From a virus: a stretch of 41,679 bases of DNA. The notes below the pieces were generated by a model. The model did not search any database and was not told the origin of the DNA. It saw only the letters and a list, made by a program, of their open reading frames with translations. A program made the translations under genes and the position numbers. This document shows positions 11,760-37,794 of this stretch, piece after piece; positions within the stretch are counted from its first letter, which is position 1, and each line of letters begins with the position of its first letter. The stretch is taken from the IMG/VR virus record IMGVR_UViG_3300031576_001285, positions 1 through 41,679 of that record, one strand, 5' to 3'.

Positions 11760-12874
11760 TTATCCTGCGTAAATACAACACCGCGACGCATATTTATATC
11801 CCAATCGTAAAAAGAGCGGTCGTTGATTTCGCCGTGGGTGCCGACTGGACGCCGGTTGCGGGGGATGTGAAGATTTCAAAAGATGGCGGAGCCGCGGCGA
11901 ACGTCACGAATTTACCGACGGCCATTGCCATGGGCAACACCGCCATGTGGGATTTCAACTTAACCGCGACGGAACTCCAAGCGGCCAAGATTATGATCAC
12001 GGTCGCTGATGCCGCGACAAAGGCCGTTGAAGATCAATGTATCGCCATTGAAACCTACGGAAACGCCTCGGCTCAACATGCGGTTGATTTAAGCGATTCC
12101 GTCCGCATGGGACTCACCGCACTTCCGAATGCAGCCGCCGGTGCAAACGGCGGCCTTCCGCTTGGGGACGCAAACGCACGAGTTGACGTCGGTAAGTGGA
12201 TCGGCACGGCACCCAATGCTCTTGTCCAAGGCAAGCTTGATGCCGCAACCATAGTTAGGAGTGGAACCGCGCAAGCGGGTGCGGCATCTTCGATCACCCT
12301 TGATGCGGGCGCATCGGCCACCACCGATTTTTATAAGGGCCTTGCCGCTTTGATTGTGGCCGGAACAGGTGCCGGTCAAATGCGTGAGATCACCGCCTAC
12401 AACGGAACGACAAAGGTCGCATCAGTCGCTCCGAACTGGGCAACGAACCCTGATGGAACCAGCGTTTTTATTCTCATTCCGGTAGATGGAGTTGTCGTCG
12501 GAGCGGACGCCAAAGCGATTCTTTCCTCGGATCCGCATACAGGCGCGGTTGTTCCGACCGTCACTGCTGTGACAAATGACGTCAAGATAAGCTCGGCTTT
12601 CAAGAAGAACGCGGCTTATGTGAATTATATGTTCCTCATGGTGGACGACACGGACGGTAAAACTCCGGAAACGGGACTCACGGGCATCAGTTGTACCAGA
12701 AGCATCGATGGTGCGGCATTCGGGGCCTGTGCCAACAGCGCCTCCGAGGTCGGAAACGGCTGGTACAAGATTGACCTGGCGGCAGGTGATTTAAACGGCG
12801 ACGAGATCGTGCTTCGTTTCACCAAGAGCGGTGTCGCCCGAAACTGGGAACACAAAATAAGGACGAATCCTTAA
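11756..12874 (+). CDS. Baseplate / tail-tip structural protein
   Basis: 372 residues. Two related beta domains flank a central region: the N-terminal one has DWTPVAGDVKISKDGGAAAN and the C-terminal one has TGLTGISCTRSIDGAAF then GWYKIDLAAGDLNGDEIVLR, the same plan of a strand with a cargo-like x-DG-x turn followed by a W-x-DL segment. The centre contains the SGTAQAGAASSITLDAGASA and GTGAGQMREITAYNGTTK motifs that recur in phage tail proteins. It is likely part of the adsorption apparatus, like upper baseplate proteins. No enzyme activity is suggested. Confidence 0.6.
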   Translation: MIILRKYNTATHIYIPIVKRAVVDFAVGADWTPVAGDVKISKDGGAAANVTNLPTAIAMGNTAMWDFNLTATELQAAKIMITVADAATKAVEDQCIAIETYGNASAQHAVDLSDSVRMGLTALPNAAAGANGGLPLGDANARVDVGKWIGTAPNALVQGKLDAATIVRSGTAQAGAASSITLDAGASATTDFYKGLAALIVAGTGAGQMREITAYNGTTKVASVAPNWATNPDGTSVFILIPVDGVVVGADAKAILSSDPHTGAVVPTVTAVTNDVKISSAFKKNAAYVNYMFLMVDDTDGKTPETGLTGISCTRSIDGAAFGACANSASEVGNGWYKIDLAAGDLNGDEIVLRFTKSGVARNWEHKIRTNP

Positions 12875-17795: not shown

Positions 17796-17816
17796 CCTTT
17801 TCACAACTAAATAAAA

Positions 17817-17993
17817 GATAGTGGTTATCCTTAACCGGATATTGAAAGGGAAGGCAGTGTGAATCTGCCACGGTCCCGCCGCTGTAATCCGATCGCTTAT
17901 ATTTTTTAGTAAGCGAACGTTTTGACAAAAAAGCCACTGGTTTAAACTGGGAAGGCGTCAAAGCGTAGGAGAGTCAGAAGACCTGCCACTGTC
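17817..17993 (+). promoter_or_regulatory. Cobalamin riboswitch aptamer
   Basis: All the main conserved blocks are visible in order: GAAAGGGAAGGCAGTGTGAA from 17844, TGCCACGGTCCCGCCGCTGT from 17866, AAGCCACTGG near 17931, GGGAAGGC near 17949, and the B12 box AGTCAGAAGACCTGCC at 17972-17987. P1 closes the aptamer: GATAGTGG (17817-17824) with CCACTGTC (17986-17993). A following hairpin, TCCTCTC (18008-18014) with GAGAGGA (18027-18033), corresponds to P13. Its loop holds CGTGG, complementary to CCACG at 17868-17872, a candidate L5-L13 kissing contact. Ligand binding (adenosyl- or other cobalamin) would favour the downstream terminator and switch nrdBA off. Confidence 0.95.
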
Positions 17994-18070
17994 ATAGCAT
18001 ATATTTGTCCTCTCGAGTCGTGGTTAGAGAGGATAATTATTATTTTCTGGGGCCTAGAAATCAGGGAGCA

Positions 18071-18107
18071 ACCCTTAGAATCCTTCACAGGATCTAAGGG
18101 TTTTTTT
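18071..18107 (+). terminator. Intrinsic terminator, riboswitch expression platform
   Basis: ACCCTTAGAATCC (18071-18083) pairs with GGATCTAAGGGT (18090-18101) with one bulged base, followed by seven T. It stands between the aptamer and nrdB, so the switch acts by premature transcription termination. A clear antiterminator was not worked out by eye. Confidence 0.88.
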
Positions 18108-18125
18108 ATTCATTATGGAGAGCTT

Positions 18126-19100
18126 ATGAACGAACCAATTCTTAAAGAAAATAAAGATCGATTTGTTTTATTTCCGATTCAACACACGGAAATTTGGAAT
18201 ATGTATAAAAAAGCCGAAGCCAGTTTCTGGACAGCCGAGGAAGTCGATCTGTCGCACGACCAAAAAGACTGGGATCGGCTTCAGAGCGGTGAGCGACACT
18301 TCATTACGAATGTCCTGGCATTTTTCGCCGCTTCGGACGGCATCGTGAACGAAAATCTGGCCGTCAATTTCATCCGCGAAGTACAAATTCCCGAAGCACG
18401 CTGTTTTTACGGCTTTCAGATCATGATGGAAAATATCCATTCCGAAACGTACTCTCTCCTTATCGACAGCTATATCAAGGACAACGCCGAGAAACAGCGT
18501 CTTTTCAACGCCATCGAAACCGTGCTATGCGTCAGGAAAAAGGCAGAGTGGGCACTGCGTTGGATACGCAAAGCCTCTTTCGCCGAACGCCTGGTGGCGT
18601 TCGCGGCTGTCGAAGGGATTTTCTTTTCCGGCAGTTTCTGTTCGATTTTTTGGCTGAAAAAGCGCGGCATCATGCCTGGCTTGGCGTTTTCAAACGAACT
18701 CATTGCGCGTGACGAAGGTCTGCACTGCGATTTCGCCTGCCTACTCTACGGCATGTTGCAAAACAAACTTACCGTTGAGACTATCCACGAAATTATCGGC
18801 GGTGCCGTTGATATTGAAAAAGAATTTGTTTCGGAATCCCTGCCGGTGGACTTGATCGGCATGAACGCCAAAATGATGTGCCAGTACATCGAGTTTGTCG
18901 CCGACCGTCTGCTAGTGGCGCTCGGTTACCCGAAGCTTTACCGTGCCTCTAACCCATTTGACTTCATGGAATTGATATCGCTTCAGGGTAAAACCAATTT
19001 CTTTGAAAAGCGGGTGGGCGAGTATCAGAAGGCCGGCGTCATGAATGGCAACAGTATCAACAAGGAAAACTTCTCGTTCAATAAGGACGTAGATTTTTAA
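18126..19100 (+). CDS. nrdB: Class Ia ribonucleotide reductase, beta (radical) subunit
   Basis: 324 residues, GGAG six bases before the ATG. It houses the diiron-tyrosyl radical that starts ribonucleotide reduction in the partner alpha subunit. All metal ligands are visible: D41 (AEEVDLS), E102 and H105 (MENIHSE), E163 (AAVEGIFF), E197 and H200 (RDEGLHCD). The radical tyrosine is Y109, so this is not the Phe-substituted chlamydial type. The C-terminal NKDVDF resembles the alpha-binding tail. Many long stretches, such as [20 protein letters not shown], are nearly the eukaryotic R2 sequence. The enzyme needs oxygen and iron, not cobalamin. It is the first gene after the B12 riboswitch and is followed by nrdA 48 bases later. 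Confidence 0.96.
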
Positions 19101-19148
19101 AACTCTCGCCAGAGGCCGGCAGGTTGAGTAAAAAAAAGGAAACTTTCT

Positions 19149-21524
19149 ATGCATGTTATAAAAAGAGACGGAAGACGCGAATCGGTTAAGTTCGACAAGG
19201 TAACATCTAGAATTGAACGACTTTGCTACGCGCTGGACCCCAAGCACGTGGATCCGACCGACGTGGCAAAGAAGGTTATTCAGGGAATTTATGATGACGT
19301 CACCACTTCCGAACTCGACAATCTCGCCGCTGAAATTGCGGCGTCGCTGACCACTAAGCATCCGGATTATGCACTCCTAGCCTCGCGCATCGCGGTCTCG
19401 AATCTTCACAAGAATACCAAGAAGTCTTTCTCCGAAACCATGCGGGACCTCTACCGGTATGTCAGTCCACGTACCGGGCAGAAAGCGCCACTGATAGCCA
19501 AGGACATTTATCAAATAATCGAGAAAAACGCCGACCTTTTGGACTCAACTATTATTTATGACCGCGATTTCGATTATGACTATTTTGCTTTTAAGACACT
19601 GGAAAAAGGGTATCTTTTGAAAATCAACGGTAAAATTGCTGAGCGTCCCCAACATATGCTTATGCGTGTGGCTGTCGGGATCCACCGCGAGGACTTGCAA
19701 GCTGCCATCGAGACGTACACGCTCATGTCCGAGCGCTGGTACACGCACGCGACGCCGACTTTGTTCAACGCAGGCACGCCTAAGCCCCAGCTTTCTTCTT
19801 GCTTTTTGATTCAGCTTAAAGACGACAGTATAGATGGTATCTATGACACGCTGAAGCAATGCGCCAAGATCTCCCAGTCGGCCGGAGGCATTGGGCTTTC
19901 CATACACAATATCCGCGCCACGGGTTCCTATATTCGTGGTTCCAATGGAACATCTAACGGCGTCGTCCCTATGCTGCGCGTGTTTAACGATACCGCGCGC
20001 TACGTCGATCAGGGCGGCGGTAAACGCAAGGGCGCATTTGCCATTTATCTCGAACCGTGGCATGCCGACATTTTAGAATTTCTTGACCTCAAGAAAAATC
20101 ACGGCAAGGACGAAATGCGCGCGCGTGATCTATTCTATGCGCTTTGGATCCCCGATCTTTTCATGAAGCGTGTTGATGAAAACGGTATGTGGTCGCTTTT
20201 TTGTCCCAATGAAGCCAAGGGCCTTTCTGAGGTTTACGGCGAGGAATTCGAGACGCTGTATGCCAAATATGAGGCCGAAGGCAAAGCGCGTAAAACCATG
20301 AAGGCCCAGGATCTCTGGTTCGCGGTGCTCGAGGCGCAAATCGAGACCGGGACCCCTTACATCCTATTTAAAGATGCGGCGAATAAAAAATCTAACCAGA
20401 AAAATCTCGGCACTATCAAAAGTTCGAACCTTTGTACTGAAATCATGGAATACACGTCGCCAGATGAAGTGGCCGTCTGCAACCTGGCCTCCATCGCGTT
20501 ACCACGCTTCGTGATTGACGGACAGTTCGACCATAAGCGACTTTTCGAAGTGACGAAGGTCGTTACGAAGAACCTGAACAAAGTCATTGACGTCAATTAT
20601 TACCCGATCGAAGAAGCGCGTCGTTCCAATCTCAGACATCGGCCGATTGGTATCGGCGTGCAGGGCTTAGCCGATGTATTCATTCTTCTGCGCACATCTT
20701 TTGATTCAGACGAGGCGAGGTGGCTCAATAAGCAAATTTTCGAGACAATTTATTTCGCCGCGATGACGGCGTCGATGGAGCTGGCCCAGATGCAAGGAGC
20801 TTATGAGACTTACGCAGGTTCACCGGTGTCACAGGGCATTTTTCAGTACGATATGTGGGGAGTCGAGCCATCAGATCGTTGGGACTGGGTATCCCTCAAA
20901 GAAGCGGTGAAACAGCATGGCATTCGCAATTCGCTTCTGGTTGCGCCGATGCCCACTGCTTCGACTTCGCAAATTCTTGGAAACAATGAATGTATCGAAC
21001 CCTATACGTCCAACATTTACAATCGTCGCGTCCTTTCGGGAGAGTTCATTGTGGTCAACAAGTACCTCTTGAAAGATTTGGTCGATTTGGGTATCTGGAA
21101 CGGCAAGCTCAAGGAAAAGGTCATTGCTAACAACGGCTCCGTGCAAAACATTGAGGAAATTCCGCAGTCGATTAAGGAAATTTACCGTACGGTGTGGGAA
21201 ATCAAACAACGCTCGCTGATTGACATGGCGGCCGACCGCGGCGCTTTCATCTGCCAGTCGCAGTCGCTGAATCTCTTCATTCAGGAACCCAACTTCGCCA
21301 AGCTCACGTCCATGCATTTCCATGCGTGGAAAACAGGCCTCAAAACCGGAATGTACTACCTGCGCACCAAGTCGGCGGTTGACGCGATCAAGTTTACTGT
21401 CGAAAACGAAGAAAAGGTGTTGATAGACGCAGTTACTAAAAATGCTACGTCTAAAGAGCAAAAAATGGCTGATATCACTTGTTCGTTGGATAACAAGGAT
21501 GAATGCTTGTCTTGCGGTAGTTAA
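19149..21524 (+). CDS. nrdA: Class Ia ribonucleotide reductase, alpha (catalytic) subunit
   Basis: 791 residues, one fewer than human RRM1 as I know it. An N-terminal ATP cone ([20 protein letters not shown]) gives dATP control of overall activity. The catalytic residues fall at the human positions: C218 (LSSCFL) and C444 (EVAVCNLAS) as redox pair, N427, C429 and E431 (SNLCTEI) around the thiyl radical, Y736-Y737 (GMYYLRT) for radical transfer, and a C-terminal CLSC pair at 786/789 for re-reduction by thioredoxin-type donors. It reduces NDPs to dNDPs with NrdB. The eukaryote-like character is unusual among the E. coli-type phage enzymes. It shares the riboswitch-controlled transcript with nrdB; a terminator follows. 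Confidence 0.97.
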
Positions 21525-21562
21525 TCGTTAGCGAAAAGTTTTTTCAGAATTATAACGTTTAC

Positions 21563-21628
21563 CACCGTCAGTCGGGGGCGGGAAATATGCCGGGCCTCGT
21601 TGGCATACCTCGTCTGGCGGTGTTTTTT
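21563..21628 (+). terminator. Large structured terminator after nrdA
   Basis: CACCGTCAG (21563-21571) pairs with CTGGCGGTG (21614-21622), followed by six T. Inside are two further helices, CGGGG with CCTCG and ATGCC with GGCAT, making a three-tier stem-loop much larger than a minimal terminator. It should isolate nrdBA from the following operon. Confidence 0.8.
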
Positions 21629-21653
21629 ATTAGTTAAATAAACAAAAATAAAA

Positions 21654-21668
21654 TCAACTATCAGTTGA
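21654..21668 (+). promoter_or_regulatory. Candidate operator (perfect inverted repeat)
   Basis: TCAACT ATC AGTTGA is a perfect 6-3-6 inverted repeat 21 bases upstream of the -35 element of the next operon. The HTH regulator encoded by the first gene of that operon is the obvious candidate ligand; this is inference. Confidence 0.5.
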
Positions 21669-21689
21669 ATAGAATAAAGGATAGGGTGC

Positions 21690-21718
21690 TTGATAACTTC
21701 TTCCTAGTGTTTTATATT
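21690..21718 (+). promoter_or_regulatory. Sigma70-type promoter of the regulator-metE operon
   Basis: TTGATA at 21690-21695, a 17-base spacer and TATATT at 21713-21718. The expected start near 21725 leaves an untranslated leader of only ~16 bases, too short for a riboswitch, so metE must be controlled differently from nrdBA. Confidence 0.75.
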
Positions 21719-21740
21719 TTTTAAAGTATGTGGAGAAATT

Positions 21741-22478
21741 ATGGATCTGGGTGGACGCATTCGAACTTTACGGGAGAAGAAGCATCTTAAGCAGGTTGAT
21801 CTTGCCAATGCTTTGCAAATTAGTCCCCAAGCCGTGTCTAAATGGGAGAAAAATGAAAACGCACCGGACTTGGTCAGTCTCCCGCGTCTGGCAAAGCTAC
21901 TCGGTGTCACCATAGATGAACTTTTAGGAATGAACAATATCGAAAATGGAGTATTTGAGGCTACCGTCTTTTGTTCTTCGATATCTGGTTTTGCAAAGGG
22001 AGCGCTTGTCGCTGGCTCCAAGGAAGTCGCCGACCGGACAAATGTTATTTTTCATCACTTGACCGAGGTTGCGCTTAAATACGGCGGCGTACCGATTAAA
22101 TACGTTGGGGATGGATTTTTATGTTTTTTCTCCGGCGTCGCCCACGCAGATCGTGCGCTTGAGGCAGCGCGGCACGCTAAAAGGTCATTAACTGATCGCT
22201 CAATTGCTATTTCCCTTAATTCTGGAGATATTTATTTGGGCTCAATAGGTCATCCAGAATATGCCAGCCGGGATATATGCGGGGATACCGTCAACCGGGC
22301 TTTTCTTATTTCGGAACGGATTGCAGATATCTGTAAGAGCGGGATCGGTTTGACCGAATCTGTTCGGAATAAGTTAGAAAAGAAAAATTCTTTAACACCA
22401 CCTAAACAGGTTTTTGTACGGCATTTGAGGACACGTCTTGCCGTCTATGAGCCGCGATTGAATAAGAAGGAGCAATAA
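21741..22478 (+). CDS. XRE-family regulator fused to a degenerate class III nucleotide cyclase domain
   Basis: 245 residues. Residues 1-63 are an XRE/Cro helix-turn-helix (QVDLANALQISPQAVSKWEK). Residues ~72-220 are a class III adenylate/guanylate cyclase-like domain: VFCSSISGFAKG, then KYVGDGFLCFF and DICGDTVNRAFLISER. Key residues have changed: the first metal Asp position is S80, and the transition-state Arg expected four residues after N185 is L189, although D124 and N185 remain. So catalysis is doubtful and the domain may instead bind a nucleotide and control DNA binding. The stop is immediately followed by the metE ATG, so the two are co-translated and this is probably the metE regulator. 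A direct HTH-cyclase fusion of this order is not one I recognise. Confidence 0.82.
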   Translation: MDLGGRIRTLREKKHLKQVDLANALQISPQAVSKWEKNENAPDLVSLPRLAKLLGVTIDELLGMNNIENGVFEATVFCSSISGFAKGALVAGSKEVADRTNVIFHHLTEVALKYGGVPIKYVGDGFLCFFSGVAHADRALEAARHAKRSLTDRSIAISLNSGDIYLGSIGHPEYASRDICGDTVNRAFLISERIADICKSGIGLTESVRNKLEKKNSLTPPKQVFVRHLRTRLAVYEPRLNKKEQ

Positions 22479-24827
22479 ATGTTAGCAAAAAGTGAGGCCC
22501 TTAAAACTTGCGTATTGGGTTTTCCGAGAATTGGCGAAGAAAGACTATTAAAAAAGTCCACCGAATCTTATTGGAAAGGTGAGATATCGGAAGAAGTACT
22601 GAATGCGGCCGGATATCAGATTAGGTCAAAAAATTGGCTTATTCAAAAAGAAGCCGGTATCGACATCATTCCTTCCAATGATTTCAGTTTTTACGATCAG
22701 ATGCTTGATATGACCGCTCTCTTAGGGGCTGTGCCATCACGTTACAAATGGAACGGCGAGAAAGTTGATTTGAATACTTACTTTGCCATGGCCAGAGGAA
22801 CAAAATCAATTCCTGCTATGGAAATGACAAAGTGGTTTGATACCAATTATCACTATATCGTGCCTGAGTTCCGTAGGAATCAAAAATTTAATCTCGCTTC
22901 CAATAAGCCATTCGACGAATTTAAAGAAGCGCTTTCCATGGGAATCCTAACAAGACCCGTATTGATCGGACCCATCACTTATCTCATGTTAGGCAAATCA
23001 AAAGACAACCAGTTCTCTACTTTGGATCTTTTGGAGCCCATCCTTGAAATTTATACGGTAATCCTGAACAAGTTCAAGGCTATTGGCGCCGAATCTATTC
23101 AAATAGATGAGCCAATACTTGTGCTAGAACTGGATACAAAAGTGAAGACCGCGATTAAGAAAGCTTATGCGAAATTCGCAAAAGAAGTGCCGGACATGCC
23201 TTTGATATTGACTACTTATTTCGGAGAATTGAAAGACAATATGAAACTTGCGGTTTCATTGCCGGTTAGCGGCCTGCATTTGGACCTAATAAGAGCTTCT
23301 CGAGAACTGAAGAAGCTTGTGAGCGTAATGCCCGACGAAATGCTTCTGTCGTTGGGCGTGGTTGAAGGAAGAAATATTTGGAAAAATGATCTGACGAGGA
23401 GCATCGGACTTTTAAAACCCGTCATTAAAAAAAGAGGTGCTGAGAAATGCATTATCGCCACTTCTTGCTCGCTTTTGTTTTCTCCGGTGGATCTTGAAAA
23501 CGAGGCCCAAATTAATGCCGAATTAAAAAGCTGGCTTTCGTTTTCGGTTCAAAAGCTCCACGAGATTGAACTGATAACGAAAGCGCTTTCCGATGGCGAA
23601 GAGTCTATTGCCTCAGAGCTTAGTCGGAATAAACGCGATATAGAAGCTCGCAGAAAAAGCAAAACAATTCATAAAAAAACGATTTTGCAAAGGATCAGGA
23701 AACTTAAGGCGGAGAACTATGCTCGTAAAAGCTCGTTTAAAATCCGTCAGGTTATACAGAGGGAAAGATTGGGTTTGCCGCTTTTACCAACAACAACGAT
23801 CGGTTCTTTTCCTCAGACCTCTGATATCCGTCAAGCACGGGCTAATTTTAAAAAGGGCGCTTTGTCCTCAGATAAATACGAGAAATTCTTGAAAGGAAAA
23901 ATAAAAGAGTGCGTCGAGCGTCAAACAGAAATCGGTCTTGATGTCTTGGTACATGGGGAAGCCGAGCGTAATGACATGGTTGAGTACTTTGGCGAACAAT
24001 TAGACGGATTTGCTTTTACGAAAAATGGGTGGGTGCAATCTTACGGCACGCGTTACGTCAAACCTCCGATTGTTTATGGAGATGTTTCAAGGCCAAAGCC
24101 GATGACGGTTAAATGGATAAAATATGCGCAATCTTTGACCGATCAACCAGTAAAAGGAATGCTTACGGGACCCATCACGATTCTTCAATGGTCATTTGTA
24201 AGAGATGATCAGCCACGCAGTGAAACGGCCAGGCAAATTGCGCTCGCGATCCGCGACGAGGCCGCCGATTTGGAAAAGATGGGTTCTTCTATCATCCAAA
24301 TAGACGAACCGGCTATCCGGGAAGGATTACCTATTCGAAAATCGGAATGGCCGAAATATCTCAAATGGGCTGTCGAATGCTTTAGGCTTTCGTCGAGCGG
24401 CGTGCAAGATAAGACGCAGATACACACCCATATGTGTTACAGCGAGTTCAATGACATTATCAAGTCCATTGCTGCCATGGATGCGGATGTTATATCAATC
24501 GAAACGTCACGGTCACAAATGGAACTTTTAGACGCTTTCGTTAAATTTCACTACCCGAATGAAATCGGTCCCGGTGTCTATGATATTCATTCTCCCCGGG
24601 TACCGTCCGTGGAGGAAATAGAGAATCTGCTTAAGAAGGCAGCCTCTTTATTACCAATTAGCAATCTCTGGGTGAATCCGGATTGTGGTTTAAAGACTCG
24701 GGGGTGGGAAGAAACAGCTCTATCTTTGAAAGCGCTGGTGAAGGCTGCCAAATCACTTAGACAGCAAGCGACTGATAAGAAAAATTTCAAAATGCCCATG
24801 ACCTCCTGTGCGAAGAACGCATCATAG
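22479..24827 (+). CDS. metE: Cobalamin-independent methionine synthase
   Basis: 782 residues, about the length of E. coli MetE (753) with small extensions, so full length with both barrel halves. It transfers a methyl group from 5-methyltetrahydrofolate (polyglutamate) to homocysteine. The zinc ligands are all present in the C-terminal barrel: H651 and C653 (HTHMCYSEF), E675 (SIETSRS) and C736 (NPDCGLKTRGW); IIQIDEPAIREGLP is the family core motif. The start follows the regulator stop with no gap and GGAG lies just upstream. MetE replaces the B12-dependent MetH, as NrdAB replaces B12-dependent NrdJ. The gene is visibly AT-richer than the tail genes. Confidence 0.96.
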   Translation: MLAKSEALKTCVLGFPRIGEERLLKKSTESYWKGEISEEVLNAAGYQIRSKNWLIQKEAGIDIIPSNDFSFYDQMLDMTALLGAVPSRYKWNGEKVDLNTYFAMARGTKSIPAMEMTKWFDTNYHYIVPEFRRNQKFNLASNKPFDEFKEALSMGILTRPVLIGPITYLMLGKSKDNQFSTLDLLEPILEIYTVILNKFKAIGAESIQIDEPILVLELDTKVKTAIKKAYAKFAKEVPDMPLILTTYFGELKDNMKLAVSLPVSGLHLDLIRASRELKKLVSVMPDEMLLSLGVVEGRNIWKNDLTRSIGLLKPVIKKRGAEKCIIATSCSLLFSPVDLENEAQINAELKSWLSFSVQKLHEIELITKALSDGEESIASELSRNKRDIEARRKSKTIHKKTILQRIRKLKAENYARKSSFKIRQVIQRERLGLPLLPTTTIGSFPQTSDIRQARANFKKGALSSDKYEKFLKGKIKECVERQTEIGLDVLVHGEAERNDMVEYFGEQLDGFAFTKNGWVQSYGTRYVKPPIVYGDVSRPKPMTVKWIKYAQSLTDQPVKGMLTGPITILQWSFVRDDQPRSETARQIALAIRDEAADLEKMGSSIIQIDEPAIREGLPIRKSEWPKYLKWAVECFRLSSSGVQDKTQIHTHMCYSEFNDIIKSIAAMDADVISIETSRSQMELLDAFVKFHYPNEIGPGVYDIHSPRVPSVEEIENLLKKAASLLPISNLWVNPDCGLKTRGWEETALSLKALVKAAKSLRQQATDKKNFKMPMTSCAKNAS

Positions 24828-27214: not shown

Positions 27215-27244
27215 TTGACTAAGCCCCATTTTGGGTGGTATACT
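27215..27244 (+). promoter_or_regulatory. Sigma70-type promoter before the NYN gene
   Basis: TTGACT at 27215-27220, an 18-base spacer and TATACT at 27239-27244. Transcription should start near 27251. Confidence 0.7.
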
Positions 27245-27249
27245 TCCAG

Positions 27250-27310
27250 CATCATCCCAGTAAGACCTCGTGTTTTGCTGGCCCCGGCTTCCTGTGGAGC
27301 CGGGTTTTTT
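27250..27310 (+). ncRNA. Short terminated leader RNA upstream of the NYN gene
   Basis: The ~60-base transcript has two adjacent hairpins. CCAGTAA (27257-27263) pairs with TTGCTGG (27275-27281), and CCCGGCT (27283-27289) pairs with AGCCGGG (27298-27304), followed by six T, an intrinsic terminator. The NYN ATG is only 15 bases beyond the T run and no promoter lies between, so the gene needs read-through of the terminator. This is either an attenuated leader or a stable small RNA. Confidence 0.62.
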
Positions 27311-27324
27311 ATTATATAGGACTT

Positions 27325-27933
27325 ATGCGAAAACTAGCCTTTTTCATAGACGGTTTCAATCTCTACCACGCCATAAAAGACAATAAAAACCTGCATAAGT
27401 ACAAATGGCTGGATCTGGCAAAGCTTTGCAGGAGCTTTTGCAGATCGGACGATGTCGTTCAGGAGATATTCTATTTCACGGCCTATGCCACTTTTAAACC
27501 GGAAGGCATGGAGCGCCACAAAACGTATGTGAGGGTCCTAGAATCCAAAGGTGTTAAACCTATTTTTGGGGAATTTAAACGCAAAGAAAAATTCTGTTTC
27601 ACTTGCAAAAAATACACTCAGTCCTACGAAGAAAAGAAAACAGACGTAAATATTGCAATCAAGCTTTTCCAGACGGCGATTCACGGCCTTTACGATATGG
27701 CATTTATTATCTCTGGAGATAGCGATCTGATTCCGGCCATTCAAGCGGTCAAGGAGACTTTCCCGGACAAAACAGTGGGTGTTATCATCCCAATCGGCAG
27801 ACGGGCGGAAGCGTTAAAACAGGCGGCTCATTTTCACATGAAAATGAAACAGCGACATCTTGAAACATGTCAGTTACCAGATCGGGTTGAATTAGATGGG
27901 AAAACAATCATGCGACCGGATCGTTGGAAATAG
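27325..27933 (+). CDS. NYN-domain (PIN-like) ribonuclease-type protein, LabA/Maelstrom-like group
   Basis: 202 residues from ATG 27325; AGGA precedes it and the conserved domain begins at once. The acidic pocket of NYN/PIN nucleases is visible: D9 (FFIDGFNLYHA), the Asp in EEKKTDVNIAI, and the two Asp in ISGDSDLIPAI. A CFTC pair in the middle may bind zinc. Such proteins are predicted metal-dependent RNA nucleases or RNA-binding proteins. A terminated leader RNA directly upstream could regulate it or be its partner. The next small gene starts six bases after its stop, so the two are probably co-transcribed. Confidence 0.85.
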   Translation: MRKLAFFIDGFNLYHAIKDNKNLHKYKWLDLAKLCRSFCRSDDVVQEIFYFTAYATFKPEGMERHKTYVRVLESKGVKPIFGEFKRKEKFCFTCKKYTQSYEEKKTDVNIAIKLFQTAIHGLYDMAFIISGDSDLIPAIQAVKETFPDKTVGVIIPIGRRAEALKQAAHFHMKMKQRHLETCQLPDRVELDGKTIMRPDRWK

Positions 27934-29066: not shown

Positions 29067-30704
29067 CTAAGCTAAAAGGGGAGAGGGTGTCTCAGTTTTT
29101 GGGCTTGGGTCGGCGTATTCAGCGAGAAGCGCTTGCCAGCTTTTGGTTTGTTTATCCCAGTCGGCCTCTCTGACGAGCTCGTTCATCTTGTACTCTGGCA
29201 CTTGGAAGATCGCTTTGTCGCTGGAGAGGAGAATGTCCTCCTGGATCTTGGGCGCAAGAAGCGCCATGCCCATGATCTGGTTGATGCGCACGTGGATCAT
29301 GTTAAGGTGGCCTGTAAGCTGCTTCACGTCGTTTATTTTGCCGGTATCCAGAAGGTCTTGGATCTGGTGAGCCAGGGCCAGATTCTGGCGAAGTTTCGGC
29401 TCTTCCTTGATAGCTTCTTTTTTCGTGGCCTTTATGTGTTTCAGGTCTTTTAATTCGACCGTGTATTCGCGCCGTTCGCTGTCCTTGTGGAGCACAAGGC
29501 CGAGGATCGCGTCCTTGGCGCTATAATCGATTCCTTTAAGCAAAGCCTTGACCGCTTCAACTTTTTCTTCCAGGGCGAGTTCCTTCCAGGCCTTTTCCTT
29601 AAGCTTTGGTTCTTGGCTTAATTTTCGAAGGATGCCCAAGACCACGTTTTCAATCTTATCGGCGCTGACGGATCGCGTGGGGCAATTACTGTGGCCGCGT
29701 TTGATGGCGTTAAGGCACACATAATAGAGGTACCTGAACTTGCCTTTTTGGGAATACGTGTGGCACATGGCCACACCACACTCTTTACAGCGAAACAAGC
29801 CACTTAAAATACCGATGCTCTTTGTGTTTGTCGAAGAACCTCGCTCAAGCCTGTTGCCTGTCAGGATTTCATTTGCCTGGAGAAAGATCTCTTCAGAGAC
29901 GATGGCTTCGTGAAGCCCTTGGTAAGCTTGGCCCTGGTGAAAGACTTTTCCGGCGTATATCCAGTTGCGGACCATCCATTGGATATTCGTGTTTTTGAAC
30001 TTCACGGCCCCGGAAGGTTTGCCTTTGTAGATCCGGGCCTTGGTGTTCAGGCCCTGCTCATTTAAGAGCCGTGCCACTGTTCGAAGTGATTTCTCCTGGA
30101 TGTAGAGATCGAACATTAGCCGGATTATTTTGGCTTCCTCGGGGTTGATCACGAGTTTCTTATTTGCCCTGTCGATGTCGTATCCGAGAGATGGTAACCC
30201 TCCGGCCCATCTACCTTTCTTTCGCGCCGCGCCTAATTTGTCTTTGGTTCGTTCGCTGATGATCTCTCGCTCAAACTGGGCGAAGGAGAGAAGGATGTTG
30301 AGTGTCAGGCGACCCATCGAAGTCTGGGTGTTGAAATGTTGCGTGACGGAGACAAAAGTAACCTTGCTCTCTTCAAAGAACTGGAGAAGCTTCACAAAGT
30401 CGATAAGGGATCTCGAAAGCCGATCTACCTTATACACGATGACGCAGTCGACTTTTCCTGCCTTAATGTCATCTGTGAGCTTCTGAAGGGCGGGGCGGTC
30501 GATGTTGGCACCGGTGAAGCCACCATCATTGTACTGGTCTGGTAGGGCTATCCAGCCCTGGCTCTTTTGGCTTTGAATGTAGCTTTCGGCCGATTCCCTT
30601 TGATTGTCGAGGGAAGTGAAGTCTTGGTCTAATCCTTCACTTGTGGACTTGCGCGTGTAGATCGCGCATCGGATTATTTTCTTTTCTTCAGTGTCAGTTT
30701 TCAT
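29067..30704 (-). CDS. Large serine recombinase (phage integrase)
   Basis: 545 residues on the minus strand. The N-terminal resolvase domain has the catalytic Ser at residue 20 (YTRKSTSEGLDQDF) and the arginine-rich motifs YKVDRLSRS and FAQFEREIISERTKDK. A recombinase domain follows (GGLPSLGYDIDRANKKLVIN), then a zinc ribbon with Cys pairs CKEC and YVCLN plus CPTRS, and a C-terminal helical region. It would integrate a circular element at attB/attP and, with a directionality factor, excise it. The start overlaps the stop of the DUF2924 gene (ATGA), a known gene pair. This marks the element as temperate or otherwise integrative. Confidence 0.93.
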   Translation of the reverse strand: MKTDTEEKKIIRCAIYTRKSTSEGLDQDFTSLDNQRESAESYIQSQKSQGWIALPDQYNDGGFTGANIDRPALQKLTDDIKAGKVDCVIVYKVDRLSRSLIDFVKLLQFFEESKVTFVSVTQHFNTQTSMGRLTLNILLSFAQFEREIISERTKDKLGAARKKGRWAGGLPSLGYDIDRANKKLVINPEEAKIIRLMFDLYIQEKSLRTVARLLNEQGLNTKARIYKGKPSGAVKFKNTNIQWMVRNWIYAGKVFHQGQAYQGLHEAIVSEEIFLQANEILTGNRLERGSSTNTKSIGILSGLFRCKECGVAMCHTYSQKGKFRYLYYVCLNAIKRGHSNCPTRSVSADKIENVVLGILRKLSQEPKLKEKAWKELALEEKVEAVKALLKGIDYSAKDAILGLVLHKDSERREYTVELKDLKHIKATKKEAIKEEPKLRQNLALAHQIQDLLDTGKINDVKQLTGHLNMIHVRINQIMGMALLAPKIQEDILLSSDKAIFQVPEYKMNELVREADWDKQTKSWQALLAEYADPSPKTETPSPLLA

Positions 30705-31156
30705 AGGTTAAAAAACAAGAACCCGTTCCAATGTGCCCCTGTGATCTCTTTCGCGATTGCCGTGAGGGACTTATAAATTTTGCCGCTATATTCAAAGCCC
30801 TTGTCCAGCGCCTTCACTTGGATTTTCGTGTTTTTATAATCTTTTGTGATGATCGTACCGGGAAGGGGAAGTCGCCGGTCTCTTTTGGGGAGGAAGCCAG
30901 ATGAGGCCACTTGGGGCTTGAGGGCCGCATTGTTCACGGGATCATAGGCGTCCATAAGTGCTTTCAGCTTGGCCTTCGCCCTGGCAGGTAATACGCCATA
31001 TTCAGCCTCCTGAATTCTATACGCCACTCTACGCCATAAATAGGTACGGTTATTGGAGGCCTTTTTGTCTGGGAAATGCTCGGTGTAGGCCGCTTGTAAG
31101 GCCTTCAAAGGCGACTCTTTTAGGGCTTCAATTTTCTGGGCTATTTCGTTGCCCAT
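30701..31156 (-). CDS. DUF2924-family protein
   Basis: 151 residues from ATG 31156 on the minus strand, chosen because GAGG lies 6 bases upstream; upstream codons would extend it into the control region. Its domain pattern is typical: LWRRVAYRIQEAEYGVLPAR, then PGTIITKDYKNTKIQVKALD and the end KSLTAIAKEITGAHWNGFLF. DUF2924 genes commonly precede a serine recombinase, as here with a 4-base overlap, and may help the recombinase or bind its site. The true function of the family is unknown to me. Confidence 0.85.
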   Translation of the reverse strand: MGNEIAQKIEALKESPLKALQAAYTEHFPDKKASNNRTYLWRRVAYRIQEAEYGVLPARAKAKLKALMDAYDPVNNAALKPQVASSGFLPKRDRRLPLPGTIITKDYKNTKIQVKALDKGFEYSGKIYKSLTAIAKEITGAHWNGFLFFNL

Positions 31157-31315
31157 GCCATCCTCTCTTTCTTGACTGCATAGGGCCATACGTTTCGAGA
31201 GATAGCAAGGGGTAATAGCGAGACGGCTATGGGACGATTCAGAGAAACTTAACAACTTTAAAAAGGCACTGAATTTACACGCGTGGTAGAATAGAACCAT
31301 ATATTTATTAACCAA
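31157..31315. promoter_or_regulatory. Divergent control region with a motif shared with the XRE gene
   Basis: This gap separates the leftward recombinase operon from the rightward KAP operon. CATAGGGCCATACG at 31179-31192 (TATGGCCCTAT on the minus strand) lies 22 bases before the DUF2924 start. The same TATGGCCnTAT core occurs at the same orientation and distance before the first XRE gene (38042-38055). For KAP, a TAGAAT at 31288-31293 may be a -10 but no good -35 is present. Confidence 0.45.
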
Positions 31316-34300
31316 ATGCCACAAAATTTAAAACTCTCAGATTTCTCTAATTTATACTTGGTTGATCGAGTTGCCGATGAGGACAAATTCGATCACCAGG
31401 ATTTTTCCGAAATTCTATGGCGGATTATTCAAGATAAGACTCTGACCGAAGACCGCACTCCTTTTAACATAGGCATCTTTGGAAAATGGGGAGTAGGGAA
31501 ATCAACGGTTGTTAACCTGTTCCGAAAAGAACTGGATTTATGGAATAAGAATAATGGCCATCAAAAAAAGTACGAATTTATTGAGTTTAAAATTTGGAAG
31601 TTCTCAAAAGAGGCCATAAAACGCAAATTTATATTCACAATTGGCCGGTCCTTATTAGGCGAAAACAAGCTAGACGAACTCAATGTTAAAGTCAGAGGCC
31701 AAAGGGTTTTTCAGCACTCCCTATTATCAGCCCCCGATTATCTTGTAAGGGAGTTACTGAACTGGAATAAGAACAAGCCGACTAAATGGATTAAACTGGG
31801 CATTGGAGTATTCGCTGCTTTTGTTGCCGCGGTCTTTCTTTTTAATCTCAAATTTCAATGGGTTCACTCATTTAGTGATTTTTTCTCTCTTCTGTGTGCT
31901 TTTCTTATTTTCCAATTGCCATCTGCTTGGGCATATATTTGCAAGGCGGTTAATAATGCCAAGATTGAAATTTCCTTTGATAAGTACGATTCAGACGAGC
32001 AATTCGAAGAAGAATTTATCCGTCAAGTCAAAGACACTGAAGAAATCATCAAAATAATATTTATTGATGACTTAGATCGTTGCCCCGACGACAAAGTGGT
32101 CGAGGCTCTTGAGACCATCAAGACTTATCTGGATGTCAAAACATGCGTGTTCATCATTGCCTGCGATGATGAGGTTATAAAAAGGGTAGTTGAATCAAAA
32201 AGAAAAGAGCTTCTTAAAGATGGGAATGCCAGCGACTATTTGAATAAGTTTTTCCAATACACCCTTAGAATACCTCCTTTTATCCATCAAAACATGCGTG
32301 ATTATGCTAAAGAAATTCTCTCTCTTCAAAAAAACGATCTCTTGAAATTAGAAAACGTTGACGATATTTTGGAGGTTCTTATTCACCCAGGTGTCGTCAA
32401 TCCTAGGAAAGCTATATCCTTAATAAATAACTTCGCGTTTGATTTTGAAACAATTCTTAAGAGAGAAGAATCGGTTTCTTCCAAGTTACGCGCTGGCGAT
32501 GTTTCAAGCCAGCTTCCTGCTCTGGCGGTTTTTACAGTCATCAAGAACGACTACTCGCCAATTTACGATTTATTGCTTCGGGACAATGAGCTCCTAAAAT
32601 ATCTCACTGAGGATGGAAAAGCCGAATTTGGAGAAGAATACCATCAGAAAATTATTCAAGAGGCCAAAAGTTTTCCAGACTTTGCCAAATTTATTTATTT
32701 TTTGAATGGCGTGACTGAATTTATTAGAGATGTTGACGATTTTACCCCGTTTGTATATTTGGATGCTGATAAAAATAGTTCAAGCTTGAAAAGCGACCGC
32801 CAGAAAGACCTCTATCACTTTTTCAAAACTGGTCAATCTGAAAAAGTTAAACAAATGATCCTCGAAAATAAAGATGTAGAGCGTCAGGTTGCGCACTTTG
32901 AAGTGATTGTGGATCTGCTAAACAGGCTAAAAATTTCTAGAGAAAAGAAAAATGGCCTAAAGACTATTTTTGATGTTGTGGAATCTGTGCCTGATAATCT
33001 AGCGCTTGGTAACCTTTCCGTTCGAATCATGGCTAAGTTTCATGATTTTGTTAGGACTAATGAAAAATGGGTCGAAGAGTTCAATTTAGAAGGTGTGATG
33101 TATGTGCTTCAGCATCTCTGGCATTCTAAATCTACGCAGCAAGAAGTAATCGGGACATTTGTTGATACTCTTAACAAGACATCCCAAATAGAATTAGCCC
33201 ATAAGTTAGTTCGTGCGATATTAAAATACGAGTTTCTTCTCACCGATCCCGTTGTTATCCAAAAGGTGCAGAATTATATTGATCGGAATAAGCCAGTGGA
33301 GGCCAATAAGGAACTGGTTTGGCTGTCTATAACGGATGTCGCTAATTTGGTTATTGAGCAAGCGGGAAGAAAGCAGGCTTTGAGTAAATTTATTTCTGCG
33401 GCAAGGATTCAAGAAATATGTGATGTGATAGCTGATTTTGATAGAGATGGCAGAGAGCTGACGGATGAAGAAAAAACGCAATTACAAACTGCTATATCCG
33501 CGTTTGACATTATAGATGATATTTTATTGACAACCCAAAATAGAATCAAAGACAGGATTGCCTCATTTACAAAGCTTCTCCCAACGAAAACCTACTATTT
33601 TGCGATATTAGACAGGGTAAAAAAATGCGTGAAAGATATTCCCGCCGACTGTGTTGATTCGTTGATAGGGGCACTGATCTTAGAAATTAGTTCTGTTGAT
33701 GGAGATGAACTAAGAAGCCTGCTTGATGCTATTGATCGCGTTTCCGCGCATAGCGAGTTAAAACCCGTACAAGGGCTGTCTTCCATAGTCACTACGCTAC
33801 CTAAAAAGATATTTGATGAATACAGCGAAGAAAACTTTCAGGTAGGCATAGAATACGTCATTAAATATTCCGATGGTCGACTGTCTGTAGAATCTCTGGA
33901 ATCGATTTTGTCTTATTTGGTTCAGAAGGTGAGCCTAGCCTCTCAAGCAGAATATAGTCGTGCGGCTTTTAGTTTCTTTCTTGAAAATGAAAGAATTCTA
34001 AGTCAAAAAATCAAAACCGATATTTGCAGCGTATTTGTAAAAGAGTTAAGTGACCCAAATTTATATGCTTTACAAAAATTTCCAAATAACGAAGGCTTTG
34101 TTTTTCTGAAATCAGTATCCGATAAGGTAGTAGCATTCTCAGAAAATAAGAATCAATTAGTCGCTAGCCTCAACGCTTCCGGGATACTTCAAGCTAATAC
34201 AGTTTCTTTGACGCTTAACCAAAAGTCCGACTTACTAAGCCTAGTGCGATCATATTTCGACCATTACGATGCGACGACCAGGGATGCGTTCTTGGTGATT

Positions 34301-35215
34301 TTGTTGCCTTATTTGACCAACGCAAATAAAGATATTGCTGCCTGGGGGATTGAACAGATCGATATCACACTACCTCTCCTTAAAATTGAAGATATATCCA
34401 CCGCATCCCAAGAAGGCCTAGTGCGCTCAGCAACTAATTTGGTCAAGACCTTGGATGGAGCTGACGATAGTGCGAGAGTTTTAAGGAGTCTTTTGTTTTG
34501 CGCAGATAAAGCTAAGCAAATGGGCGGAGTTTGTATTGCGGCGTTACTGGAGGCAATTGAATTACAATTTCAGCCGAACCGTAACCATCAATTAGCTTTT
34601 AATGCACTTGTTGCCAGATACGATGACTTTAATTTAGAAAAACAGGTGGTATTATGCGGAAGTTATTTAGGTTCAACCGCATTCTCTGGTGCGAATACTT
34701 CTATGTTGTTGAAAAAGATTGAAGAGCAGTTTTCTAAGTTGGCTTCCAAAGAAGAAAAGTTAGATTTGATCGATAAGTACGCGGTTGGCGTTAGTCTTGA
34801 CGAGCGAGCATGGACTTTCTTTTCTCAGGTTTTGGATAGTTTGCATAAACAACTAGATGCTGATTTTAAAAAGGAAATTGCCGAGAAAAGTATCACGCGA
34901 GTCAAAGCCCAAGACGAAACCTCGAGTGTCACAAGGAATCGGTTTACTATTGTTAATCGGCTAAAGTCCGATAAGGTGTATCCAGATTCAGAAATTTACG
35001 GATTGTTTACCCACTTATTTAATGGGGATTCCGACGAATCAAAAGATTTGGCATGCGATTTGATAAATGTATTTTATGGCGATTTTCAAAAGATACCAAA
35101 GAGACTTAGAGAGAGCTACAAAACTACTATAGAACAATCAATAGACAGAACTGAAAACGAAGCAATTAAGGCTAAGATGAAATCGGTTCTGGGGTCAGAC
35201 TGGCTAGTATTTTGA
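31316..35215 (+). CDS. KAP-type P-loop NTPase with membrane insertion and long C-terminal region
   Basis: 1299 residues. The Walker A is at 56-64 (GKWGVGKST) and Walker B at 247-255 (FIDDLDRCP, with D251/D252). Between them are two hydrophobic segments near 160-182 and 190-214 (GIGVFAAFVAAVFLFNL and FFSLLCAFLIFQLPSAW), the membrane insertion that defines many KAP NTPases. After ~400, some 900 residues of repeated helices suggest a HEAT-like scaffold. The N-terminus has no Shine-Dalgarno, and the gene is AT-rich compared with the tail genes. It precedes a methyltransferase and endonuclease by 16 bases, so it is likely a component of, or fused to, that defence operon. Its effector activity is unknown. 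Confidence 0.85.
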   Translation: MPQNLKLSDFSNLYLVDRVADEDKFDHQDFSEILWRIIQDKTLTEDRTPFNIGIFGKWGVGKSTVVNLFRKELDLWNKNNGHQKKYEFIEFKIWKFSKEAIKRKFIFTIGRSLLGENKLDELNVKVRGQRVFQHSLLSAPDYLVRELLNWNKNKPTKWIKLGIGVFAAFVAAVFLFNLKFQWVHSFSDFFSLLCAFLIFQLPSAWAYICKAVNNAKIEISFDKYDSDEQFEEEFIRQVKDTEEIIKIIFIDDLDRCPDDKVVEALETIKTYLDVKTCVFIIACDDEVIKRVVESKRKELLKDGNASDYLNKFFQYTLRIPPFIHQNMRDYAKEILSLQKNDLLKLENVDDILEVLIHPGVVNPRKAISLINNFAFDFETILKREESVSSKLRAGDVSSQLPALAVFTVIKNDYSPIYDLLLRDNELLKYLTEDGKAEFGEEYHQKIIQEAKSFPDFAKFIYFLNGVTEFIRDVDDFTPFVYLDADKNSSSLKSDRQKDLYHFFKTGQSEKVKQMILENKDVERQVAHFEVIVDLLNRLKISREKKNGLKTIFDVVESVPDNLALGNLSVRIMAKFHDFVRTNEKWVEEFNLEGVMYVLQHLWHSKSTQQEVIGTFVDTLNKTSQIELAHKLVRAILKYEFLLTDPVVIQKVQNYIDRNKPVEANKELVWLSITDVANLVIEQAGRKQALSKFISAARIQEICDVIADFDRDGRELTDEEKTQLQTAISAFDIIDDILLTTQNRIKDRIASFTKLLPTKTYYFAILDRVKKCVKDIPADCVDSLIGALILEISSVDGDELRSLLDAIDRVSAHSELKPVQGLSSIVTTLPKKIFDEYSEENFQVGIEYVIKYSDGRLSVESLESILSYLVQKVSLASQAEYSRAAFSFFLENERILSQKIKTDICSVFVKELSDPNLYALQKFPNNEGFVFLKSVSDKVVAFSENKNQLVASLNASGILQANTVSLTLNQKSDLLSLVRSYFDHYDATTRDAFLVILLPYLTNANKDIAAWGIEQIDITLPLLKIEDISTASQEGLVRSATNLVKTLDGADDSARVLRSLLFCADKAKQMGGVCIAALLEAIELQFQPNRNHQLAFNALVARYDDFNLEKQVVLCGSYLGSTAFSGANTSMLLKKIEEQFSKLASKEEKLDLIDKYAVGVSLDERAWTFFSQVLDSLHKQLDADFKKEIAEKSITRVKAQDETSSVTRNRFTIVNRLKSDKVYPDSEIYGLFTHLFNGDSDESKDLACDLINVFYGDFQKIPKRLRESYKTTIEQSIDRTENEAIKAKMKSVLGSDWLVF

Positions 35216-35231
35216 TTAATTTTTTTACAAT

Positions 35232-36863
35232 ATGAAAACACTGCAAGAATCTAAAAGTTTAAACATCAGCTTCATTCAAAATCAGGAAAAACTTGGGCAA
35301 GAATCTCTAGTAGATTATGCGGAAAATTTGGCGGCTCAGCATATTCAGATTAGCGATTCTGAGCAAAGAAAAACCAAAGGCCAGTTTTTTACCCCAAAAG
35401 AAGTTGCCCGTTTCATGGTTGGTTTGTTCGATATAAAAGGCCAGCGGATCAGGTTGCTCGACCCTGGAGCGGGCGCCGGTATGTTGACCGCGGCATTCTG
35501 TGACCGCGTTTTACACTTGAAAACAAATATTGAATTGAATATTGATATTTATGAAAATGATCCTTTGATAATTCCTTGTCTCAAGAAGGTGCTACAAAAG
35601 TGTAGATCAACTTTGAAAGAAAAGGGGCACGAAGTTAGTATTAACGTTATAGAGGATGATTTTATCCTAAAAAACGCCAGATTCTTTGATAGTGAAGAGC
35701 TTTCGTTATGGGCTGATAAGCGCCCAATGTTTGACTATGTGATTTCTAACCCTCCTTACTATAAGTTGAACGCCGATTCCGTACACGCGAAAACCATGAA
35801 GGGGCTTGATTTGGGGCACCCAAATGTTTACGCGCTCTTCATGGCGTTGTCTCTTCGGCTTCTACGGTTAGATGGGGAGATGGTTTTTATCACGCCAAGG
35901 AGTTTTTGTTCAGGGCTCTATTATAAGAAATTTCGCGCATGGTTTCTTAAAAATGTTTCCTTCTCGCGTATCCATATGTTTGGATCAAGAAAGGACGTGT
36001 TCGATCAGGAAGGGGTTTTACAGGAAAATATCATTTTTAAAACTAGACCTCAATCTTCTAAAGACAAAACATCTTCTGTAGATATTACCATCAGCAAAAA
36101 TCAGTCATTTGAAGATGTAAGGGGACACCGAGTTGCCCGCAGAGAGATTTTCCATGAAATGAACGAAGATACTTTAATAAAAATTCCGACATCGCAGCTT
36201 CATATTCAAATCCAACATGCGGTTAAAGATTGGAAATACACATTACATGATCTCGGTTTGGAGGTTTCTACTGGGCCTGTTGTCGATTTCCGTGCCAAAG
36301 CATTGTTGATAGACTTCGTGGATACAAAGAAGACCGCCCCTTTGATTTGGATGCATAACATTCAGGGAATGAAAGTGGTTTGGCCGCTCGAAAAAAATGG
36401 GAAGCAGACAGGAGTCCGGCTTACCAAAGATTCTGAGTCATTATTGCTGCCTGCGAGAAACTATGTTTTGATAAAGCGTTTTAGCTCAAAGGAACAGGAA
36501 CGGAGACTTTACGCGGGGGTTCTCTTTGCCCATGAGATCAAATCGCCAACCATTGGCATTGAGAATCACGTCAATTATCTCTACCGGCGACGGGGGAACA
36601 TGTCGTCAGATGAAACCGTTGGTATGGCGGCGCTTCTTAATACTGCCATAGTGGATGAATATTTTAGATGTTTGAATGGGAATACCCAGGTCAATGCCTC
36701 GGATTTAAGAGTGTTGCCATTTCCTTCGCTTGATTTAATAGAAGAAATTGGGAACGTAGTGAGAGTCAGGAAACCAGAAATCGGTTTTGAGATGGATAGT
36801 ATCGTGGCGGATATCATTGGTATGGATAACCGAATTATTGAGAGATTGTATGAGAAAAGTTAA
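35232..36863 (+). CDS. N6-adenine DNA methyltransferase of a type II restriction system (Eco57I/PstI-like)
   Basis: 543 residues. A motif X-like GQFFTP (50-55), motif I LDPGAGAGML (76-85) and motif IV NPPY (173-176) identify an amino-methyltransferase that uses SAM to methylate adenine. The C-terminal half would be target recognition, as in PstI/BsuBI-type enzymes. The upstream gap contains no Shine-Dalgarno (TTAATTTTTTTACAATATG), so translation may be weak or coupled to KAP. The endonuclease gene starts inside its 3' end with a 14-base overlap, typical for a modification/restriction pair. It would protect the DNA that the endonuclease cuts. Confidence 0.9.
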   Translation: MKTLQESKSLNISFIQNQEKLGQESLVDYAENLAAQHIQISDSEQRKTKGQFFTPKEVARFMVGLFDIKGQRIRLLDPGAGAGMLTAAFCDRVLHLKTNIELNIDIYENDPLIIPCLKKVLQKCRSTLKEKGHEVSINVIEDDFILKNARFFDSEELSLWADKRPMFDYVISNPPYYKLNADSVHAKTMKGLDLGHPNVYALFMALSLRLLRLDGEMVFITPRSFCSGLYYKKFRAWFLKNVSFSRIHMFGSRKDVFDQEGVLQENIIFKTRPQSSKDKTSSVDITISKNQSFEDVRGHRVARREIFHEMNEDTLIKIPTSQLHIQIQHAVKDWKYTLHDLGLEVSTGPVVDFRAKALLIDFVDTKKTAPLIWMHNIQGMKVVWPLEKNGKQTGVRLTKDSESLLLPARNYVLIKRFSSKEQERRLYAGVLFAHEIKSPTIGIENHVNYLYRRRGNMSSDETVGMAALLNTAIVDEYFRCLNGNTQVNASDLRVLPFPSLDLIEEIGNVVRVRKPEIGFEMDSIVADIIGMDNRIIERLYEKS

Positions 36864-37794
36864 AGAAGGAATCGCGATTTTATCAATGCTTGGAATGCCA
36901 CGAGGGCAGCAAAACGACCGATCTGCCTTAACCTTGCTTGCCTTGCTGAATCTTGGAAAAAATAAAAGGTGGGCTCAAGCCGAGCAAAGAATGATAAGAA
37001 TACACGATATTCTCAAATTTGCAAAAAAAGAATATAAAAAAACTTATGCTGAAAATTCTCGGGAGACTTTTAGAAGGCAAACACTCCACCAATTCGAGCA
37101 AGCAGGCATAGCTGATAGAAACCCCGATGATCCAAGTCGATCAACCAATAGCCCCAAAAATGTTTATATGGCGACGACAGAGATCGTTGAAGCAATTTCA
37201 AAATTTGAAACTTCTCGGTGGCAATCCGCCGTCAATAAATTTACCAAAAATAAAGGCAAACTTATTGATAGGTATGCGAAGCGTAAAAAAGCAAATCTGA
37301 TAACTATGAATGTACCGGGAGGAACGTCGATTGCTTTTTCTCCCGGAAAACATAATGAGTTGCAGGTACAGGTTATCGAGGAATTCAGACCACGCTTTTG
37401 CCCAGACTCCGAGGTGCTATACGTCGGCGATACCGCTCGGAAGATGCTTTTTGTTAAGGAAGAGGCGTTTAAGAAATTAAATATTCCTATTACCCAGCAT
37501 GACAAGCTGCCTGATATAGTTTTATATAATAGGAAGAAAAATCATCTTATTTTGATTGAAGCCGTAACTGCGCATGGTCCGATGTCACCGAAGCGGCAGG
37601 TTGAACTTGAACAAACATTGAAAAATTGTAAGTCGCAGAGAATATATTTAAGCGCGTTTCCCGATTTGAGGCAATTCAAGAAGCATATTGATAATGTTGC
37701 CTGGGAAACGGAGGTCTGGCTTTCTGACAATCCTGACCACATGATTCATTTAAATGGGCCAAAGTTTTTTACAGCCTATGACCCACCGGCGTAA
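36850..37794 (+). CDS. BsuBI/PstI-type restriction endonuclease
   Basis: 314 residues from ATG 36850, which overlaps the methyltransferase by 14 bases; earlier in-frame starts lie deep inside that gene. The C-terminal region carries the family signature: D222 in LPDIVLYNRKKNH and IEAVTAHGP at 236-244, the altered PD-(D/E)XK site of BsuBI_PstI_RE. The N-terminal half (KEGIAILSMLGMPRGQQNDR, LTLLALLNL) is the winged-helix part of that family. It should cleave unmethylated sites of the partner methyltransferase. The recognition sequence cannot be read from the protein. Confidence 0.9.
   Translation: MRKVKEGIAILSMLGMPRGQQNDRSALTLLALLNLGKNKRWAQAEQRMIRIHDILKFAKKEYKKTYAENSRETFRRQTLHQFEQAGIADRNPDDPSRSTNSPKNVYMATTEIVEAISKFETSRWQSAVNKFTKNKGKLIDRYAKRKKANLITMNVPGGTSIAFSPGKHNELQVQVIEEFRPRFCPDSEVLYVGDTARKMLFVKEEAFKKLNIPITQHDKLPDIVLYNRKKNHLILIEAVTAHGPMSPKRQVELEQTLKNCKSQRIYLSAFPDLRQFKKHIDNVAWETEVWLSDNPDHMIHLNGPKFFTAYDPPA

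Follow-up and report, generated by a model that had tools for sequence, protein, structure and literature searches.

The fusion gene considered here lies in a window of 41,679 nucleotides, the whole stretch of DNA that was analysed, which spans virus record IMGVR_UViG_3300031576_001285 and carries a lambda-type portal gene, a Mu-like capsid gene and tail genes. Genes for a B12-independent class I ribonucleotide reductase, nrdB and nrdA (18126–21524, plus strand, assigned from domain matches), are preceded by a cobalamin riboswitch (17805–18004, plus strand, RF00174, 95.6 bits). Between nrdA and the fusion gene there is a terminator-like hairpin followed by T6 (21563–21628, plus strand, fold −32.7 kcal/mol, z −2.95), which was missed by a simple terminator scan. 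Because of this hairpin the fusion gene and metE are probably on their own transcript, and nrdB-nrdA with its cobalamin riboswitch is probably a separate transcription unit. The fusion gene itself (21741–22478, plus strand, ATG start) encodes 245 amino acids. The first base of metE (22479–24827, plus strand, TIGR01371, 1118 bits), the gene for B12-independent methionine synthase, comes directly after the stop codon of the fusion, which thus heads an operon with metE as its second gene, as a preliminary description of this DNA had claimed. No riboswitch was found in the window between nrdA and metE. The B12-free counterparts of nrdJ and metH are nrdAB and metE, which means that a B12-independence cassette is present on the element; in the prophage-like window it occupies positions 17805–24827, where the unit of cobalamin riboswitch and nrdBA together with metE provides B12-independent replacements. 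The genes nrdA, nrdB and metE are also adjacent on a Methylocella tundrae plasmid (L006). Further along the window there are a candidate defence gene for a NYN-domain protein (27235–27933, PADLOC HEC-09 match, E 5e-58), a DUF2924 gene adjoining a large serine recombinase on the minus strand (29067–31324) and a KAP P-loop NTPase with a QatA-like match followed by a BsuBI/PstI-type restriction-modification pair (31316–37794).

In the protein an XRE helix-turn-helix (HTH) domain is joined to a class III cyclase domain that is catalytically dead, the architecture that the preliminary description had read from the sequence. More specifically, residues 7–61 match PF01381 (E 1e-14) and residues 73–226 match PF00211 with 21.9 bits, which is exactly the cut-off for this degenerate domain of about residues 71–236. 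In the AF2 model, predicted as a monomer (pLDDT 84.7), the five helices of an XRE (Cro/C1) domain are found at residues 3–61 and the remainder has the cyclase homology fold, with Foldseek TM scores (by target length) of up to 0.78 against solved cyclases; the loop 169–178, beside the adenine Asp, has low confidence. The closest solved structures to the cyclase-like domain are 5OYH (CaAC with ATP) and 2W01 (Cya2). Domain searches gave no cobalamin-binding domain and no ArsR domain in the fusion, and no Pfam or NCBIfam model spans the whole protein. A weak match to the Pycsar cyclase PycC (E 5e-6) was rejected; it is due to the shared cyclase fold only, the catalytic residues are missing and the neighbouring gene is metE.

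Upstream of the operon there is a perfect inverted repeat, TCAACTATCAGTTGA, with arms TCAAC and GTTGA around TATCA (21654–21668). It lies 5′ of the predicted promoter TTGATA-17-TATATT (21690–21718, plus strand, 10/12 in a consensus scan, conserved in position), in agreement with the preliminary description. We call this repeat putative operator box 1; its centre precedes the −35 hexamer by 29 bp, counted to the first base of the hexamer. Putative box 2 (21675–21693, TAAA...TTGA) begins 21 bp downstream of the box 1 start and its right arm overlaps the −35 hexamer; it is degenerate in the window and its position is taken from the relatives described below. A second exact copy of the inverted repeat is found at 12073 inside a tail gene, and for this reason a single exact repeat in the window is not significant by itself. 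What makes it significant is its recurrence in the relatives, where at least 9 of 10 positions match in 18 of 40 upstream regions as compared to 0.2 expected. The same box and spacing recur in a fixed layout, namely box 1 as TCAAC-N5-GTTGA, a gap of 6 bp, box 2 from TCAA, then the TTG of the −35 and, about 17 bp downstream of it, a −10; the ahcY group has the same layout with right arms near CGYCA. Scored as a whole, this arrangement is present at 14 or more of 18 matches in 33/40 upstream regions against 0.1 expected, a figure that is descriptive, since these loci, many of them related, also served to define the pattern, although the margin is very large. The operator is missing upstream of L009, L012, L013 and L118 and doubtful in L018. 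Exact pattern searches in 15 and 17 genomes gave mostly intragenic matches at chance level, and these were treated as chance with the exception of sites in trans before metF and metH: one lies 76 bp before metF in a single genome (G289) and full two-box sites precede metH in two genomes (G825 and G826). Other intergenic matches were found in L158, L171, L200 and L218. Judged from this conservation, the inverted repeat looks like the operator of the fusion protein. At the autoregulated lambda promoter PRM, one CI dimer sits at about −42 and another at about −65. The putative box centres here are near −42 and −65 as well, which suggests activation; as the direction of control we would give activation rather than repression roughly an even chance.

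Regarding the distribution of the fusion, one genome scan gave 13 relatives with 48–57% identity, and searches with an alignment of these 13 brought the total to about 40 full-length relatives in several phyla. The fusion thus belongs to a family and is not a single decayed gene. The family is patchy, being present in 4/248 genomes of one class, 2/237 of a phylum, and 13/46 and 12/68 in others. Phyla are intermixed within one clade of the tree, and this suggests transfer between lineages. The relatives sit in bacterial contigs. Searched with the single protein, viral contigs, plasmids and phages gave shared HTH domains only or no match, and the alignment search of viral contigs revealed no second fusion.

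Downstream sequence was readable at 39 loci, and 32 of these have one of five partners, taken as the next gene or, in one group with an intervening small membrane protein gene, as the one following it: ahcY (15), metE (9), thyX (4), metH (2) and purA (2), counts that overstate the independent events because many loci are mutually related. None of the five genes is adjacent in the other seven (L008, L009, L011, L012, L013, L116 and L118). The preliminary description had proposed a search for the same fusion beside metE or nrd in other genomes and would count it as contrary evidence if homologues never adjoined metE and did not bind the repeat; metE is next or one gene away at the 9 loci, window included. 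The gene metH directly follows the fusion in L019 and comes after thyX in L015; thyX adjoins the fusion in L114, L115, L117, L119 and L015. The purA call in L104 is based solely on similarity with L103. An AdoCbl-II riboswitch separates the fusion from metE in L010, where B12 is therefore read by RNA. No SAH or SAM riboswitch was detected at the fusion loci scanned. A cobalamin riboswitch is located just 3′ of metE in the fusion operon region of L111 (7476–7655) and L112 (2909–3049). The small conserved membrane protein of about 125 aa (RYGLYLxRWQLSTPILAxV), which has no Pfam match, is encoded between the fusion and metE or thyX in L109, L112–L117 and L119.

Alignment of the window protein with ATP-bound 5OYH places S80 at the metal Asp D457, D124 at D501, N185 at N573 and L189 at R577. 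The preliminary description was accurate on all four residues: D124 and N185 are kept, and other residues have taken the place of the first metal Asp and transition-state Arg. In 5OYH, adenine is bound by K497 and D566, N573 reaches purine N7 through water, D501 contacts the ribose and a metal, D457 contacts the metal, R577 points towards the alpha-phosphate and T462 is part of the phosphate loop (PMC5967339). The adenine pair, K120 and D178 in our protein (K497 and D566), is present in 39/39 aligned family members, and N185 and D124 are each found in 37/39. The first metal Asp occurs in no member, with S, A, G or T at this position in all 39, so that the two metal Asp residues of an active class III cyclase are not both present; the transition-state Arg is likewise absent from all 39, replaced by L or I, and with it the Asn and Arg combination of an active enzyme. 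No member has Ser or Thr at the T462 position of the triphosphate loop. Arg at the R545 position, which faces the gamma-phosphate, is seen in only 3 members, in a less reliably aligned column. All aligned members have H171 and Y174, two residues of the loop beside the adenine Asp. Both D457 and R577 are retained in other cyclases from the genomes of the family members. Thus the family has kept a place for adenosine and has lost the main means of holding and cutting a triphosphate. D124 could still coordinate a metal, and the kept base contacts would also be compatible with ATP, ADP or AMP as ligand. Unlike all other aligned members, the purA-leading relatives L103 and L104 have P in place of D124 and S in place of N185. 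As this pair is nested inside the ahcY clade of the tree, a shifted ligand is suggested for it.

We propose that the fusion protein is a dimeric, autoregulated one-component transcription factor. Its XRE domain would bind the conserved two-box operator just 5′ of the −35 of its own operon, and the enzymatically dead cyclase domain would act as a dimeric sensor of an adenosine-containing metabolite of the SAM cycle that lacks a triphosphate. The most likely ligand would be S-adenosylhomocysteine (SAH), with SAM or adenosine less likely. Ligand binding would alter DNA binding and in this way adjust genes for recycling SAH and remaking methionine (ahcY, metE, metH, metF). These four genes are controlled by SAH-sensing systems, either SahR or the SAH riboswitch (PMC4239095), and the fusion loci and their trans sites likewise bring ahcY together with metE, metH and metF. 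It is very probable that the fusion protein regulates these operons through the operator; a ligand with an adenosyl group and without triphosphate seems slightly favoured. As a whole, we consider it reasonably likely that the protein is a one-component regulator which controls the SAM/methionine cycle in response to an adenosyl metabolite, SAH being the most likely one. The linkage to thyX and purA does not fit a pure SAH sensor, and thyX is unexplained by SAH alone. The preliminary description had put forward a regulator that reads a small molecule and acts on the repeat rather than making cAMP. This part is supported, as catalytic losses and operator are conserved family-wide and the neighbours are metabolic genes.

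Among the alternatives, a sensor of adenine-nucleotide status (ATP, ADP or AMP), whose dead cyclase domain would tie energy or purine status to one-carbon genes, could account for the invariant adenine contacts, the retained D124 and the two relatives leading purA. It is nevertheless unlikely, because the first metal Asp, the alpha-phosphate Arg and the loop Ser/Thr are lost in every member and most of the linked genes are SAM-cycle genes rather than genes of purine synthesis. We find it improbable that the protein senses one-carbon or folate status, for example ZTP or a folate: the commonest partner, ahcY, uses no folate and the pocket retains the adenine-type K/D pair, even though metE, metH, metF and thyX are all folate users, thyX lies beside the fusion at the five loci named above and there is a metF site in L173. 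The suggestion of the preliminary description that the protein is the B12-status sensor for metE does not hold up. It would agree with the adjoining metE and with the cobalamin riboswitch and B12-independent nrdBA nearby, but the same fusion also leads ahcY, thyX, purA and B12-dependent metH operons, its pocket residues are of adenine type, it has no B12-binding domain, metE of L010 has a separate AdoCbl-II riboswitch and the window already contains a cobalamin riboswitch before nrdB; this makes such a role very improbable. Hardly credible is a phage repressor or immunity regulator placed by chance 5′ of metE: the XRE domain does resemble phage repressors and the record is prophage-like, yet the relatives are on bacterial contigs, where they adjoin SAM-cycle genes and have the same operator, and the fusion was found on no other viral contig among those searched. 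An active DNA-tethered cyclase making cAMP or cGMP would agree with the class III fold; it has next to no probability, since the metal Asp and transition-state Arg are missing in 39/39 members.

If the SAH-sensing regulator is true, it would be a new protein sensor of the SAM cycle in lineages where no described one was found, and would clearly exemplify the conversion of a second-messenger enzyme into a one-component ligand sensor. The chances are about equal for and against the broader picture, a widespread, horizontally moving family of one-component regulators whose nucleotide cyclase domain would have given up catalysis and triphosphate binding and become a sensor of SAH or another adenosyl metabolite, and whose member in the window travels on a prophage along with B12-independent enzymes. 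As the putative operator is delimited at single-base resolution, targets can be predicted and tests begun without delay. A natural test of a joint change of pocket and target is provided by the purA-linked pair, in which D124 and N185 are lost as well.

In a literature search limited to open-licence papers no published description of the fusion family was found. Sensors that pair an HTH with an enzyme have precedents; we have found no description of one with this sensor fold, operator and regulon in combination. SahR has targets including ahcY, metE, metH and metF and the same suggested ligand, but it is an ArsR-family protein, whereas the fusion joins XRE to a dead cyclase domain and has another operator (PMC4239095). 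MetJ, MetR and SamR control overlapping methionine genes and have ribbon-helix-helix, LysR and ArsR folds, respectively, and other effectors (in part PMC4239095). The SAH riboswitch resembles the fusion in the SAH-responsive control of ahcY operons, but is RNA and not protein. With class III cyclases (5OYH CaAC, 2W01 Cya2) the fusion shares the fold, the Lys and Asp of the adenine pair, the second metal Asp and the Asn; it differs in having lost the first metal Asp, the transition-state Arg and the triphosphate-loop Ser/Thr and in having a DNA-binding domain. In BzdR/BoxR-type regulators an XRE domain is fused to a shikimate-kinase-like sensor, which makes them similar in combining XRE with an enzyme-derived domain and different in sensor fold, ligand and targets. 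Lambda CI, with its comparable placement of two sites at PRM, differs from the fusion in sensor domain, operator sequence and biological role.
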